Below are positions 1,380-5,279 of a stretch of 41,201 nt of DNA, piece by piece (position 1 is the stretch's first letter; every line of letters begins with the position of its first letter). The DNA is from Planctomycetaceae bacterium. GTDB lineage: Bacteria; Planctomycetota; Planctomycetia; Pirellulales; PALSA-1355. Location of the stretch: contig PLYM01000002.1 of assembly GCA_003153375.1 (NCBI GenBank), positions 1 through 41,201 of the forward strand, read 5' to 3'. The notes beneath the pieces were generated by a model. It was not told where the DNA came from and did not search any database. It was given only the letters and a program-made list of their open reading frames with translations. The position numbers and the translations under genes were made by a program.

Positions 1380-1871
1380 GCGGCCGAGTCTGTTGATCGG
1401 GGCGGTAGGTGGTCGGTGCCAAATCCAACTACCTGCCGCGCCCTTGCTTCTCGGATTCGCATTCTCGCCTTGCTGGCGACCCTCACGGCAATGTCGCAAT
1501 GCGGCAGACGAGCCGTTAGCCGATCAACGCGAGCATCGCCCGGCGAATGGGCTCGGGAAGTGACGGCCGCGCAACAAAGACCCGCTCCGACCCGGCGAAG
1601 GGTCAGAGCGGGCGAGCAGTCCATCAAGCCTTCTCGACCCGCCGCTGGATGTCGTCTGCGTCGTTGTTGAACGTCTCCTGGCCGCATCAATACCCTAATC
1701 TCCAACGGCACTACGTGGCAGGCGGGGGCTGGTCGCACCACCTCAGTCATTCTTACGATCGATTTCCCCGATCCATCCGCCGGTATCATTGAGGCCTGCG
1801 ACATCGTCATGTTCTTCACCGTCGTCGTTTATCAGGCATGCCGAGAGGTCGGACCAGTGTAGGATTGCTTT
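1380..1871. other. Gene-free stretch with one strong inverted repeat
   Basis: I see no supportable gene in these 490 bases. They hold a 13-bp inverted repeat with one mismatch (1581-1593 against 1600-1612, six-base loop). On the plus strand no T-run follows it. On the minus strand the sequence after it is TCTTTGTTGC, so it could be a weak minus-strand terminator. The right end leads into the IS630 transposase remnant, and the transposase's missing N-terminal HTH is not readable here. Confidence 0.45.
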
Positions 1872-2426
1872 GTGCGTCTGAGAATCGAGGGGAATATATC
1901 CCGGGACGTAGCCGCCATGGGACCTCAGGATCTCGCCCACGAATTCGGCGTCCTGCGATCGCTGGCTGGCATTTATCATCTGCTGCATCGCTTGGGCTAT
2001 TCATATCTGCGCCCGCGGCCCCGTCACCGCTTAGCGAATCCTCAAGCTCAGGAAGATTTTAAGCTCGCATTGCCGGCGCGACTGCTGGCCGTGCGCGACG
2101 CCCATCCTGGCAAGCAGTTGCGAGTGTATTTTCAAGACGAGTCGCGGTTCGGACAACAAGGCACGACGACCAATCTATGGGCCCTCCGCGGCTCACGACC
2201 GACGGCGGTTCGGCAGACCGAATACCAATACCTGTGGGTACTCGGCGCGGTGTGCCCGGAAACGGGACACGCGGAGGGTCTTTTGAGTCCGCAGTTGAAC
2301 ACGAAAATCGTCAATCTGTTTTTGCAGCAGTTCTCTCAAACGCTCGGCGCCGATGAACATGCTGCCATGATTTGGGACGGCGCCGGCTTCCACATCAGCA
2401 GAGAGTTGCGAGTTCCAACCAATATC
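1872..2426 (+). pseudogene. IS630-family transposase, N-terminal part (split and truncated)
   Basis: The frame contains the IS630/Tc1-type DDE transposase core. It shows a linker ending in LLHRLGYSYLRPRPRH, the first catalytic Asp region VYFQDESRFGQQG, and the second Asp region IWDGAGFH. Reading stops matching the family at the triplets for VPTN (about 2420). The rest of the core, including the third acidic residue, resumes at 5056. The usual N-terminal HTH of about 60 residues is also missing, so the copy was already shortened or mutated. The open frame runs on to 2729, but beyond 2426 it is read-through into the inserted cassette and is not transposase. Confidence 0.85.
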
Positions 2427-2867
2427 GTAAGCGGACATCAACTGTTTCCGGTGCGGACGATCCGATGCAAAGTGCTTCGCCAACTGCCGCTTTCGTTGCC
2501 AGATATCTTCGGTCTTGATGTACAGCACGCCAAGGCTTTTCCAATAGACGGCGTGGGAAAGTGTTTTGGCAAGCTTACCGAAAACAGCGAGGCGATACGG
2601 GGGTTCATGAAGAAGAACGTAGTCAAGCCAGCGTTCCTCGGCCAAGGCTTTCGCAGCCGCCTCTTCTGCGGTTTGAAGGAGATGATTGATCCATGCCGCC
2701 CCCTCCATCTTGACGCCGACCACATGTAACAGGGGATGTTGCAACATCAGACCATCCGATGTCCCAGTGTCGTGAGCCAGATACGCCCAAAGGTCGGAGC
2801 GTAGCGGCTCCTTCTTGCTCATGAGCGTGAGCATCAGCCCTGTGGCTGCTTCCACTTCGAAATTCAT
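2193..2867 (-). CDS. Hypothetical protein at the cassette's left edge, running off its end
   Basis: The start is ATG 2867, with an in-frame stop immediately upstream, and the 224-residue frame is open to 2193. Only the first 146 residues or so (2427-2867) lie in the cassette. The remaining 78 are antisense to the IS630 transposase and are an accident of insertion. The cassette part looks like a genuine soluble protein: a helical Ala/Glu/Leu-rich centre followed by a segment rich in Tyr, Trp and Lys (HAVYWKSLGVLYIKTED). I recognise no family. The natural C-terminus would have been supplied by the original flanking DNA or was lost. The ribosome binding site is weak. Confidence 0.5.
   Translation of the reverse strand: MNFEVEAATGLMLTLMSKKEPLRSDLWAYLAHDTGTSDGLMLQHPLLHVVGVKMEGAAWINHLLQTAEEAAAKALAEERWLDYVLLHEPPYRLAVFGKLAKTLSHAVYWKSLGVLYIKTEDIWQRKRQLAKHFASDRPHRKQLMSAYDIGWNSQLSADVEAGAVPNHGSMFIGAERLRELLQKQIDDFRVQLRTQKTLRVSRFRAHRAEYPQVLVFGLPNRRRS
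2419..2426. repeat. Target-site duplication, left copy (CCAATATC)
   Basis: CCAATATC occurs here and again at 5056-5063, exactly flanking the inserted cassette. Removing the cassette plus one copy rejoins the IS630 transposase in frame (VPTN followed by ITLVQLPPYSPELNP). This is strong evidence that it is a true 8-bp duplication made on insertion. Confidence 0.88.
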
Positions 2868-3064
2868 CGATCACCGTCTGTGATGGATGGTTTGGGGTTG
2901 GCCACTTCTCCTGTTGGCAAATCCGGGTGTCTCGGCCCTTTCGACTGCCAAGCTGGAGAGCCCAAGGCTTGTCTGAGGAACCGTAGCCAACCATCATAGG
3001 GGATGTTGGAAAACGATCAATCACCTGGACAATCTTCAAATCACCGCTCGAATCCAGCAGACGA

Positions 3065-3463
3065 ATGATGCACGCTGAACCTGAGAGAACGAATCGAAAA
3101 CGGAAGAATCCCGAGCCGACTCAGAAGAAATCAGCGAACTCAGAATTGCTGCGGCCGGTCAAAGCCGTGTATCGACTCCTCGGCAGGTATCTCGACATGA
3201 CGTTTGCAGAGTTCCAGGTCGGCGTCTTGCAAGATGTGCACCCAGAAACCGAAGTCGCAATTTGGTGCAGGATCGCAACGGTGTGGTACGACTACCACGA
3301 GAGGGTGCTCGAAAGTGAGCGTCTTTCTAAGGTCGAGGAGCAGAAGCTTCTTGTTGCGCTGATCGCCATTTTTGCAGGCGAGAAGAACGTGCGGAGACTG
3401 CCAGTGTCGGCCGAGGTCGGAACTCTGCTTTTGTTCTGCTACGATAGTGTGGCGAGGGCGTGA
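3065..3463 (+). CDS. Hypothetical cassette protein
   Basis: The 132-residue product has a highly basic, polar N-terminal 30 residues (Arg/Lys/Asn/Pro-rich) and then a compact helical domain rich in Leu, Val and Glu with a central Trp-Cys-Arg and Trp-Tyr-Asp-Tyr. Two adjacent ATG codons (3065 and 3068) could start it. No strong ribosome binding site precedes them. It ends one codon into the frame that leads to the next gene, and the two plus-strand genes probably form an operon ended by the hairpin at 3885-3930. The function is unknown. The basic tail could contact nucleic acid. Confidence 0.55.
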   Translation: MMHAEPERTNRKRKNPEPTQKKSANSELLRPVKAVYRLLGRYLDMTFAEFQVGVLQDVHPETEVAIWCRIATVWYDYHERVLESERLSKVEEQKLLVALIAIFAGEKNVRRLPVSAEVGTLLLFCYDSVARA

Positions 3464-3534
3464 TCTGCGCTCCTAGGCCACAGCCGTGGCACGCATCTCA
3501 AGCTGAGCCGCCACAACAAAGGGAGGTGATCGAG

Positions 3535-3867
3535 GTGAAATCGTCAACACATAAAAAGCGGGGACCACGAGCCGGCAGCAAATCGGAAAGGATCAGAGAA
3601 GCCTTGAAGGCGAATCCAGGTCAAACCCGTAAAGAAGTCGCAGAAAAGTTTGACGCTTCGTATGGACTAGCCGAGAAAATTGTCACCGAAGTCAGGGGCG
3701 TCAAAAAGCAGACGAAGAAAGCAGGCAAATCCAAGCAGAGTGGCGGCGGTGACACTGGCGACGACGGCGTTGCGGCCAAAGCGATTTCCTTCATCGAGGC
3801 TGCTGGCGGACTCCAGCAGGCAATCGACATCCTTCAAGTTGCACAGAAGATTTCCGTGACGATTTGA
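3535..3867 (+). CDS. Small HTH-containing DNA-binding protein of the cassette
   Basis: I choose GTG 3535 because a near-perfect Shine-Dalgarno sequence (AAAGGGAGGTGAT, 3518-3530) sits four bases upstream. The open frame itself could extend to 3460. The 110-residue product starts with a basic stretch, followed by SKSERIREALKANPGQTRKE and a second helix ending in SYGLAEKIVTEV. This helix-turn-helix pattern is seen in small phyletically restricted regulators of planctomycetes. A Lys/Gly-rich linker leads to a C-terminal amphipathic helix (about residues 85-110) suited to dimerisation. It is likely the cassette's own regulator. Target and role are unknown. Confidence 0.65.
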   Translation: MKSSTHKKRGPRAGSKSERIREALKANPGQTRKEVAEKFDASYGLAEKIVTEVRGVKKQTKKAGKSKQSGGGDTGDDGVAAKAISFIEAAGGLQQAIDILQVAQKISVTI

Positions 3868-3884
3868 ACGCCTGAATGCAGCCC

Positions 3885-3930
3885 AACGAAAAAGCCCCTT
3901 GCCGAGTTTGTGGGCGGGGGCTTTTTCGTT
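3885..3930. terminator. Bidirectional terminator of the cassette
   Basis: A perfect 14-bp stem (3885-3898 with 3917-3930, AACGAAAAAGCCCC arm) carries both an A-run on its left arm and a T-run on its right arm, so it can terminate transcription in both directions. It lies 17 bases after the stop of the plus-strand HTH gene and 2 bases after the stop of the minus-strand gene ending at 3933, exactly between convergent units. Confidence 0.9.
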
Positions 3931-3932
3931 GG

Positions 3933-4127
3933 TTAACGGTTGCTCGACCCCACGAAGTGGCGTTGCGTCTCTTTGTCACCGACCGTCTCGCCAGCTAATC
4001 GGCGTGCATATCGCCGCTGCACGAATCGCCTTCCGCTTTTCGATGTGGGCTCTTTGCCGCCTTTTTCCCGCAAGCTATTGACCCACTTGTAGTCAGTCAA
4101 TCGTTGAGGTTGTCCGGTGGTAATCAT
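3933..4127 (-). CDS. Small basic hypothetical protein of the cassette
   Basis: ATG 4127 opens a 64-residue frame that is very rich in Arg, Lys and Gly (RRFVQRRYARRLAG in the middle). The frame is open further upstream to 4187, but no better start is seen. It ends immediately before the bidirectional terminator, which supports real transcription from the right. The ribosome binding site is poor (AAGAGA). No family is recognised. Confidence is moderate at best, because composition of this kind also occurs in chance frames. Confidence 0.35.
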   Translation of the reverse strand: MITTGQPQRLTDYKWVNSLREKGGKEPTSKSGRRFVQRRYARRLAGETVGDKETQRHFVGSSNR

Positions 4128-4170
4128 TCTTGTCTCTTCTTGTAGTCCGACTCGTCGGCCACGACAACCG

Positions 4171-4350
4171 TCAGTTGCTGGCCCCACGGCTTGATGAGTG
4201 AGCAGCTAGTTCCTTCTTGGTCATTTCGTCGATTGCGTGAAGTACCTTGTCATAGGCGAGCACGGACCAGAGGTCCATGCAACTTGGACACCTTACAGTG
4301 TCCTCACACATCTGCTCAACTTGCCTCCTAAGAACCTTCAACTCGTCCAT
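4171..4350 (-). CDS. 59-residue Cys-pair protein of the cassette
   Basis: ATG 4350 is preceded by GGGGAG at a spacing of about 9 bases. The product opens with MDELKVLRRQVEQMCEDTV, then a CPSC motif (residues 21-24), then an amphipathic Lys/Glu helix. An early Cys plus CPSC could form a small metal-binding or redox site. It lies upstream of the 4127-3933 ORF and downstream of the 4745-4518 ORF on the same strand, so the three may form one short operon. The function is unknown. Confidence 0.5.
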   Translation of the reverse strand: MDELKVLRRQVEQMCEDTVRCPSCMDLWSVLAYDKVLHAIDEMTKKELAAHSSSRGASN

Positions 4351-4517
4351 GTTTTCAAACTCCCCAATCGAGAGAACTGCCCGACCAGATGTAGCCGCCC
4401 TCGACCTCAGCGGAATAGGTGTGGTTCTGATTGACCCACCAATAACGCATAAGGCGATTCGCCTCTAGAACGGATTAAACCAAATTGGGTGCGGGCCGGA
4501 AGGACCAGATTGGTGAA

Positions 4518-4745
4518 TTACCCCGTGTCGCCACTTGGTGGCAAGTCTTTGTCAGTTGCAAGCGGCTTTTTAGATTTCATCAGATGCTTGCCGTTTCCCA
4601 TGCCCCTTAGCTCATCGTAGGTAAACGACACGTCCTGCGTGCGAAAGACCCGACCTGGGTAAAGCTGTGACCAAGCCATGCTCGACTTTTGGTCTCGTAC
4701 CTGAAGTATCTCGCCCTGTATTTCAATTTCTAGCGTGATCGCCAT
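4518..4745 (-). CDS. Hypothetical cassette protein, 75 residues
   Basis: ATG 4745 begins a 75-residue frame whose N-terminal half has alternating hydrophobic residues (MAITLEIEIQGEILQVRDQ) suggesting beta strands, followed by a Lys-rich tail. It is the most upstream of the three minus-strand cassette genes. The ribosome binding site (GGAG) is about 12 bases from the ATG, which is loose. No family is recognised. The strand-like pattern and codon use are more gene-like than those of the surrounding frames. Confidence 0.45.
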   Translation of the reverse strand: MAITLEIEIQGEILQVRDQKSSMAWSQLYPGRVFRTQDVSFTYDELRGMGNGKHLMKSKKPLATDKDLPPSGDTG

Positions 4746-4950
4746 TACGTCAGTTTTCTCCGCTGGACATGAAGGGCAATTTAAAGGCGATCATTCTCGT
4801 GGTCTGTCATCATACCAGCCACGGGGACCGTTTCATTGGTGCAACCCCGGGACCTCTAGGATATATCCGTCATGCCATATTACTCAAGCATCTCCGAGTT
4901 TTGTTGTGAGTCTGATTGGGCGTCATAGTTGATGATTGTGTTTTTCCGAG

Positions 4951-4970
4951 CTAAACTTGCCGTTTAGTTT
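4951..4970 (+). terminator. Short hairpin with T-run near the cassette's right end
   Basis: CTAAAC (4951-4956) pairs with GTTTAG (4962-4967) around TTGCC and is followed by T bases. The stem is short and AT-rich, so it would be a weak terminator. It lies just before the ATG at 4998 that happens to read through the cassette end into the second half of the IS630 transposase. Confidence 0.35.
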
Positions 4971-5055
4971 TCAAATCACAACTGGGGAGTCAACAACATG
5001 GCAAAGAAAATGACCGTCGTCGTCGAAATCTCCAATGGCGGTGGAGCGCGCTTAC

Positions 5056-5063
5056 CCAATATC
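5056..5063. repeat. Target-site duplication, right copy (CCAATATC)
   Basis: This is the right-hand copy of the 8-bp repeat flanking the cassette. It belongs to the transposase coding sequence and matches 2419-2426 exactly. Confidence 0.88.
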
Positions 5064-5279
5064 ACGCTGGTGCAACTGCCGCCCTATAGTCCCGAACTGA
5101 ATCCGATCGAGAACCTCTGGCACTATCTAAAGAGCCATTTCTGGTCGAACCGAGCTTACGCCGACTACAACGAACTGGAACAAGCCGCGATCGATGCCTG
5201 GCGGCAAGCCGTCCTTGATGCCGACTTGATGAAAACCGTTTGCGCCTCTCCCTACGCAAATCGCGCTACTTCAGACTAG
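5056..5279 (+). pseudogene. IS630-family transposase, C-terminal part
   Basis: This is the second half of the transposase interrupted at 2426. It reads ITLVQLPPYSPELNPIENLW, the classic IS630/Tc1 third-acidic-residue block, followed by a Trp/Tyr-rich helix and the stop at 5277-5279. An ATG at 4998 inside the cassette gives an in-frame fusion of 93 residues, but the first 19 are cassette-encoded. Without the two N-terminal catalytic Asp residues the product cannot transpose. Confidence 0.85.

Follow-up and report, generated by a model that had tools for sequence, protein, structure and literature searches.

Known systems and the segment considered here

Insertion sequences (IS) of the IS66 family have a terminal repeat of 20-30 bp that starts with GTAAGCG, and they are flanked by 8-bp direct repeats (PMC11946415). 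ISPa75 is a tIS66, an IS66 element that contains passenger genes, and carries fosZ; its second end is like that of a different IS66, and fosZ is supposed to have been 'entrapped' by IS66s (PMC12888890). In the case of ISEc9/ISEcp1, a 36-kb transposed segment with a direct repeat is bounded by an imperfect right inverted repeat (IRR) that lies within a gene and agrees with the true IRR at 4 of 14 bp (PMC12116815). Considered here is a 2,629-bp segment that interrupts an IS630-family transposase gene of a Planctomycetaceae bacterium (Pirellulales). It lies on contig PLYM01000002.1 of assembly GCA_003153375.1, of which positions 1 to 41,201, the whole stretch of DNA that was analysed, are called the window. 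At its right end the segment most likely bears the remnant of an IS66 element; its left tip, a heptamer within the codons of a truncated gene (orfA), is a candidate surrogate end.

Boundaries and target of the insertion

The segment proper extends from 2427 to 5055 and reads GTAAGCG...CGCTTAC. It is flanked by two exact copies of the octamer CCAATATC, at 2419-2426 and 5056-5063 (a direct repeat, assigned to no strand), so that the junctions are CCAATATC/GTAAGCG at 2419-2433 and CGCTTAC/CCAATATC at 5049-5063, both read directly from the DNA. When the window was scanned for GTAA/TTAC pairs 1.2-6 kb apart, an exact flanking 8-mer was found at the 2427/5055 pair only. The ends thus bear the IS66 tip GTAAGCG, and CCAATATC, present twice, has the length of the IS66 target duplication. 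The termini and the duplication proposed in an earlier reading of this DNA, made from the sequence alone (the sequence-only reading), therefore hold; the inverted tips are perfect over 7 bp, and over 22 bp only 12 positions agree. The G+C content is 53% in the segment and 57-59% in its flanks.

The interrupted gene is the truncated IS630-family transposase gene, whose 5' part occupies 1854-2426 of the forward strand, through the first target-site copy (Pfam matches to HTH_33 and DDE_3, and alignment with the homologue described below), and whose 3' part occupies 5064-5279 of the same strand (a tblastn piece and the joined frame). When 2427-5063 is omitted, which takes out the segment and one of the two repeat copies, a single open IS630 frame results through ...RELRVPTNITLVQLPPYSPELNP..., as the sequence-only reading had claimed. 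This restored frame is open only over 1863-5279, an in-frame stop being present at 1860-1862. Genome G043 has an uninterrupted homologue (locus L127; 83% amino acid identity) with an open frame of 375 residues, the first Met of which is residue 26; the window copy aligns only to residues 108-375 and lacks the start. To judge from this alignment, the IS630 gene was already broken, its 5' part lost, before the segment jumped in. At the nucleotide level, the G043 and window IS630 sequences form one 717-bp alignment (79.5% identity) that spans the insertion site without interruption; its one gap, of 1 base, is at the far 5' edge. Had the IS630 gene never existed uninterrupted, the earlier interpretation would fall; the G043 homologue, gap-free across the site, indicates otherwise. 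Both IS630 matches in the organism's own genome fall inside the window. Together these observations confirm that the 2,629-bp segment is a real insertion.

Further copies were also sought. DNA searches of the organism's own genome and of a set of 97 genomes that includes it recovered no second full copy. A search of 397 genomes with the left-end 23-mer (up to 3 mismatches) returned the window's own site and one site in G043, against 4 for a backward control; the G043 site was rejected as a second copy and attributed to chance, no matching repeat being present there.

An IS630 gene interrupted near the same codon occurs in another genome (G026, L126:2010-7951), where the interruption consists of transposase frames of another type with an IS66 nested within. 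The possibility that IS66 had inserted at this very site was considered and rejected, because the edges belong to the other element, a transposase frame of which was read as IS3-type by eye, without a family search.

The right end is most likely an IS66 end

The right end (5006-5055, reverse strand, tip CGCTTAC) is 82% identical over 50 bp (E=5.8e-7) to an IS66 end in genome G018 (L172:625-674), behind which lies an IS66 TnpA frame (NF047593, E=3.2e-11, over the cut-off). This locus was found by means of the outermost 22 bp of that right end, so that the independent part of the comparison comprises bases 23-50, of which 21 of 28 agree. A second end, found through a transposase search and hence independently of the window, matches the right end GTAAGCGCGCTCCACCGCCATT at 19 of 22 positions (L088:974, G046) and is followed, starting 87 bp inside, by a frame that is TnpA-like by eye. 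Because the match to L172 extends beyond the bases used in the search and has TnpA behind it, the right end most likely represents what is left, about 50 bp, of the tnpA-side end of an IS66 element now lost. The same end pattern gave 0 matches in genome_contigs.

IS66 transposases were detected in 65 of the 146 genomes of the order that were searched. Six matches are in the organism's own assembly, in which no IS66 end pair was identified that could represent a resident element with matching ends; four of the six matches are no more than 650 bp away from the end of a contig. Twenty IS66 loci were fetched and the two best GTAA-tipped pairs per locus were considered; among the pairs listed, agreement at 15 or more of 22 positions occurs at L075, L089, L090, L091, L092 and L093. 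A 16/22 pair at L076, lacking a GTAA[GC]CG tip, was left aside. The elements at L089-L091, all in genome G251, are of IS66 type with perfect 21-bp ends (GTAAGCGTACACCGGCACCAT) and have no evident 8-bp target duplication. In genome G028, the end beside an IS66 transposase stop (L171:623) agrees at 21 of 22 positions with an end on a different contig (L162) that was called tnpA-side from its resemblance to other ends; the two ends of such IS66 elements probably look alike.

The left end lies within a truncated gene

Of 22 positions compared, 12 are the same in the left end, GTAAGCGGACATCAACTGTTTC, as in the right, 7 of them being the heptamer, whereas 15-21 of 22 agree in five IS66 end pairs (one of them, from G028, joining ends from two contigs). 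In place of the family's 20-30 bp terminal inverted repeat, the segment has a perfect repeat of only 7 bp. Ends were also scored with a matrix built from nine IS66 ends that had not been found via the window's own end, the background being 107 GTAANCG sites in loci fetched for reasons other than IS66. The score of the right end is equalled or beaten by 1 of the 107 background sites and that of the left end by 48, positions 8-22 of the left tip scoring as a chance GTAANCG site. An 11-end matrix was dropped as partly circular, since a search with the window's right end also recovers the sites of 7 of its 11 ends; the contrast given by the nine-end matrix is the weaker of the two. IS66 affiliation is therefore apparent for the right end only, and the left appears to share little with it beyond the heptamer.

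The left tip itself (GTAAGCG, 2427-2433, forward strand) coincides with codons of orfA (2427-2867, reverse strand), a C-terminally truncated relative of phrog_4776 (E=3.9e-25) that aligns to profile positions 11-145 of 237. Matches to orfA were found in 101 of 50,697 phage records (mycobacteriophage proteins), and the 20 of these that were listed align to residue 145. Homologues are present in 3 of 296 other genomes and align through SDRPHRKQLMSA to residues 144, 145 and 146 of 147, after which the homologues extend for about 90 residues past the cut in the window copy. The codons for a conserved RPxRxx[LI]M motif come as close to the tip as about base 10. These alignments show orfA to be truncated at the left tip. 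Because they reach residues 144-146 and the homologues run on for about 90 residues, the bases just inside the left tip are native gene sequence, the gene stopping where the segment stops. From this, the stronger argument, and from the chance-like matrix score, we infer that the left tip is a chance heptamer that served as a surrogate end.

In keeping with its truncation, the open frame of orfA continues antisense into the IS630 gene to 2193; the insertion made a chimeric open frame at 2193-2867 (reverse strand) in which the truncated orfA is joined to IS630 antisense sequence. Searches for orfA gave no confirmed match in viral contigs and one weak match (30%) in plasmids. The orfA homologue of Mycobacterium phage Faith1 (L154), gp123, is in a region rich in tRNA genes, with a tRNA-Lys gene just downstream of it.

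Proposed mechanism and alternatives

Entry of the segment into IS630 by IS66-family transposition is supported directly by the 8-bp duplication, the GTAAGCG tips, the uninterrupted homologue and the IS66-homologous right end. The segment itself was probably formed when an IS66 transposase joined one true end to a surrogate GTAAGCG in flanking DNA, the body of the IS66 being lost. The true end would be the tnpA-side IS66 end, now the right end, and the surrogate would be the chance GTAAGCG inside orfA, where conserved codons come to within about 10 bases of the tip. Pairing of the two would have moved the adjacent non-IS DNA with its small genes and cut orfA off. The IS66 genes behind the true end may have been deleted either ahead of the jump, which would then have needed transposase in trans, or following it. 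Read from the right, the layout would be the left inverted repeat (IRL), the lost tnpABC, the cargo and the makeshift second end, as in a tIS66-like capture product that has no transposase. One IS66 transposase would have joined both ends, and for the IS66 family the mechanism is suggested by analogy.

Several points weigh against this proposal. The segment occurs as a single copy, so its movement is inferred from one event. Genuine IS66 ends, each scored with its own genome left out of the matrix, can also fall at background level (G040b, 32/107; G092b, 27/107); because two of nine real ends do so, the low score of the left end is not decisive by itself. At the left end, an IS origin of the outermost 6-9 bp is conceivable. 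Among the features of a surrogate end of the ISEcp1 kind, repeats at both edges, a true end and a cut gene are seen, and no donor locus in which orfA runs through the left-tip site was found. With up to 3 mismatches, the right-end pattern recurs at 15 additional sites, spread over 10 of the 195 other genomes, and the backward control gave 11 hits; this look-alike count means little alone. The five delimited IS66 pairs (L075 and L089-L092) have no exact 8-bp repeat, possibly because the insertions are old. Finally, a literature search, largely without subscription papers, yielded no recognised description of surrogate ends for IS66.

The segment might instead be an ordinary non-autonomous IS66 cassette, either a mobile insertion cassette (MIC) or a stripped tIS66, with two genuine but diverged ends and an orfA that was truncated on an earlier occasion and ended up next to the left end. 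This is unlikely, even though GTAAGCG is the tip of the family (PMC11946415), IS66 end pairs may agree at just 15 of 22 positions (G222), some real ends score as background and a tIS66 with unlike ends is known (ISPa75; PMC12888890). The RPxRxx[LI]M motif of orfA, reaching to about base 10, leaves room for an IS end of no more than about 9 bp, compared with agreement at 15-21 of 22 positions in the five pairs. It is improbable that the segment belongs to another family that has short tips and makes 8-bp duplications, its resemblance to IS66 at the right end being incidental. The segment contains no IS66 gene, and right-end look-alikes in relatives (15 besides its own) barely exceed the backward control (11), in agreement with such an origin; yet the 50-bp, 82% match is to an IS66 end with TnpA behind it, and GTAAGCG together with 8-bp repeats is the published IS66 signature (PMC11946415). 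An assembly chimera or a chance pattern, for which the fragmentation of the assembly (291 contigs) and the single copy might speak, deserves hardly any weight, given that an exact 8-bp repeat, matching tips and a restored frame coincide at one place and that the uninterrupted homologue displays the site.

The earlier description of the segment as an IS66-like cassette within IS630 stands as regards the insertion itself, the IS66-type tips, the 8-bp duplication and the absence of a recognised transposase; an ordinary mobile insertion cassette, in which a matching pair of IS66 ends would enclose intact genes, is not supported, the right end alone being clearly IS66 past the heptamer. Surrogate-end capture would be contradicted by a parent IS66, or a second copy of the segment, with a tnpC-side end GTAAGCGGACATCAACTG... 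or GTAAGCGGACATCAAC, and favoured by a parent IS66 whose tnpC-side end resembles GTAAGCGCGC.CCACCGCCAT.

Other cargo and its origin

Besides orfA, the segment contains five open reading frames (ORFs), orfB to orfF. The product of orfB (3065-3463, forward strand), of 132 amino acids, belongs to a sporadic family found in 12 of 397 genomes including the organism's own, with 20 invariant columns in 9 sequences. orfC (3535-3867, forward strand; about 110 amino acids, start codon uncertain) encodes a putative DNA-binding protein, as suggested by a weak DNA-binding profile (E=0.01) and by sub-threshold matches to HTH_Tnp_IS630 (E=0.15) and the TnsA C-terminus (E=0.24). It has matches in 14 of 397 genomes including the organism's own, most at weak E-values. 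A contig of genome G114 (C1) contains eight dispersed orfC-like matches, with open frames of about 115-153 amino acids where printed, which may represent a multiplying small family of putative DNA-binding proteins. Between orfC and orfD lies a terminator-like hairpin, AACGAAAAAGCCCC...GGGGCTTTTTCGTT (3885-3930, no strand assigned, read directly); it was considered as an integron attC and rejected, as its motif does not fit the consensus.

The remaining three frames are on the reverse strand. orfD (3933-4187, 84 amino acids) and orfE (4171-4350, 59 amino acids) are unsupported open frames with no significant match in four family libraries; they were not searched one by one in genomes. orfF (4518-4745, 75 amino acids) matches TrmI-like_N at E=0.00069, under the Pfam cut-off, and is found elsewhere only on contig C150 of the organism's own genome, in a block to which it is 93% identical over 165 bp of DNA and 87% identical over 55 residues. 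That block (L004:3872-5253) contains an orfB-like sequence (89% nucleotide identity, with an in-frame stop) and the orfF-like sequence (93%) in the same order and orientation as in the segment, the intervening DNA being different. An IS4/5-type transposon with 25-nucleotide ends lies directly to the left of the block, and the similarity breaks off abruptly on the right.

Among the six cargo ORFs scanned, no transposase family scored over its cut-off, in agreement with the sequence-only reading, and no defence family was found in the cargo. Apart from two weak tblastx pieces, IS66 loci match the segment at its right end only. Six complete cargo genes had been counted earlier, which is too many, given that orfA is cut by the left end and orfD and orfE are unsupported. 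Searches of plasmids with orfB, orfC and orfF gave no match, and none was confirmed for orfB in genome_contigs. Whether the cargo is part of a longer conserved chromosomal region, which would have spoken against a cassette, was examined at 12 orfB loci, which come from 11 genomes besides the organism's own, and no such region was found there: orfB alone among the six cargo ORFs matched, and among window ORFs of at least 50 amino acids starting before 9000, only orfB and its antisense frame had relatives within 6 kb of orfB at these loci. The cargo seems to derive from a region of mosaic make-up that has a related block on C150, and is possibly phage or plasmid DNA.

Comparison with described elements and implications

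Like the tIS66 ISPa75, the segment has IS66 tips, and its cargo is enclosed by the IRL side and by a second end unlike the IRL; ISPa75 differs in retaining tnpA, tnpB and a DDE transposase gene as well as a recognisable IS66 second end, neither of which the segment has (PMC12888890). The passengers of the segment are not accompanied by the tnpA, tnpB and DDE transposase that mark a tIS66. With ISEcp1/ISEc9 it shares a true end and duplications at both edges and probably also a weak end inside a gene and the mobilization of adjacent DNA; ISEcp1/ISEc9 belongs to another IS family, makes 5-bp rather than 8-bp repeats and itself travels with the DNA (PMC12116815). The one-ended products of IS801 similarly have a genuine end on one side and, on the opposite side, a short motif similar to the missing end (PMC3189936). 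MIC231 of Bacillus cereus (mentioned in PMC3281130) is, like the segment, transposase-free; it is moved in trans by an IS transposase, as the segment may have been. The target sites and ends of the last two systems offer further points of comparison. IS801, an IS91-family element, is not known to make a target duplication, in contrast to the 8 bp of the segment, and MIC231 is reportedly related to IS231, with two matching IS ends around its cargo, in which it differs from the segment.

A segment with one true end, and with a heptamer inside a cut gene as its other end, is suggestive of surrogate-end capture of IS66 passengers. For the acquisition of fosZ, entrapment by IS66s is supposed in PMC12888890; the segment suggests how such elements acquire new genes. 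Tentatively, IS66 transposases may recruit flanking DNA through one true end and any nearby GTAAGCG, a process that, with the IS genes then either lost or kept, would be the source of both tIS66 passengers and transposase-free cassettes; if it is general, passenger capture in the IS66 family would need only a 7-bp match.

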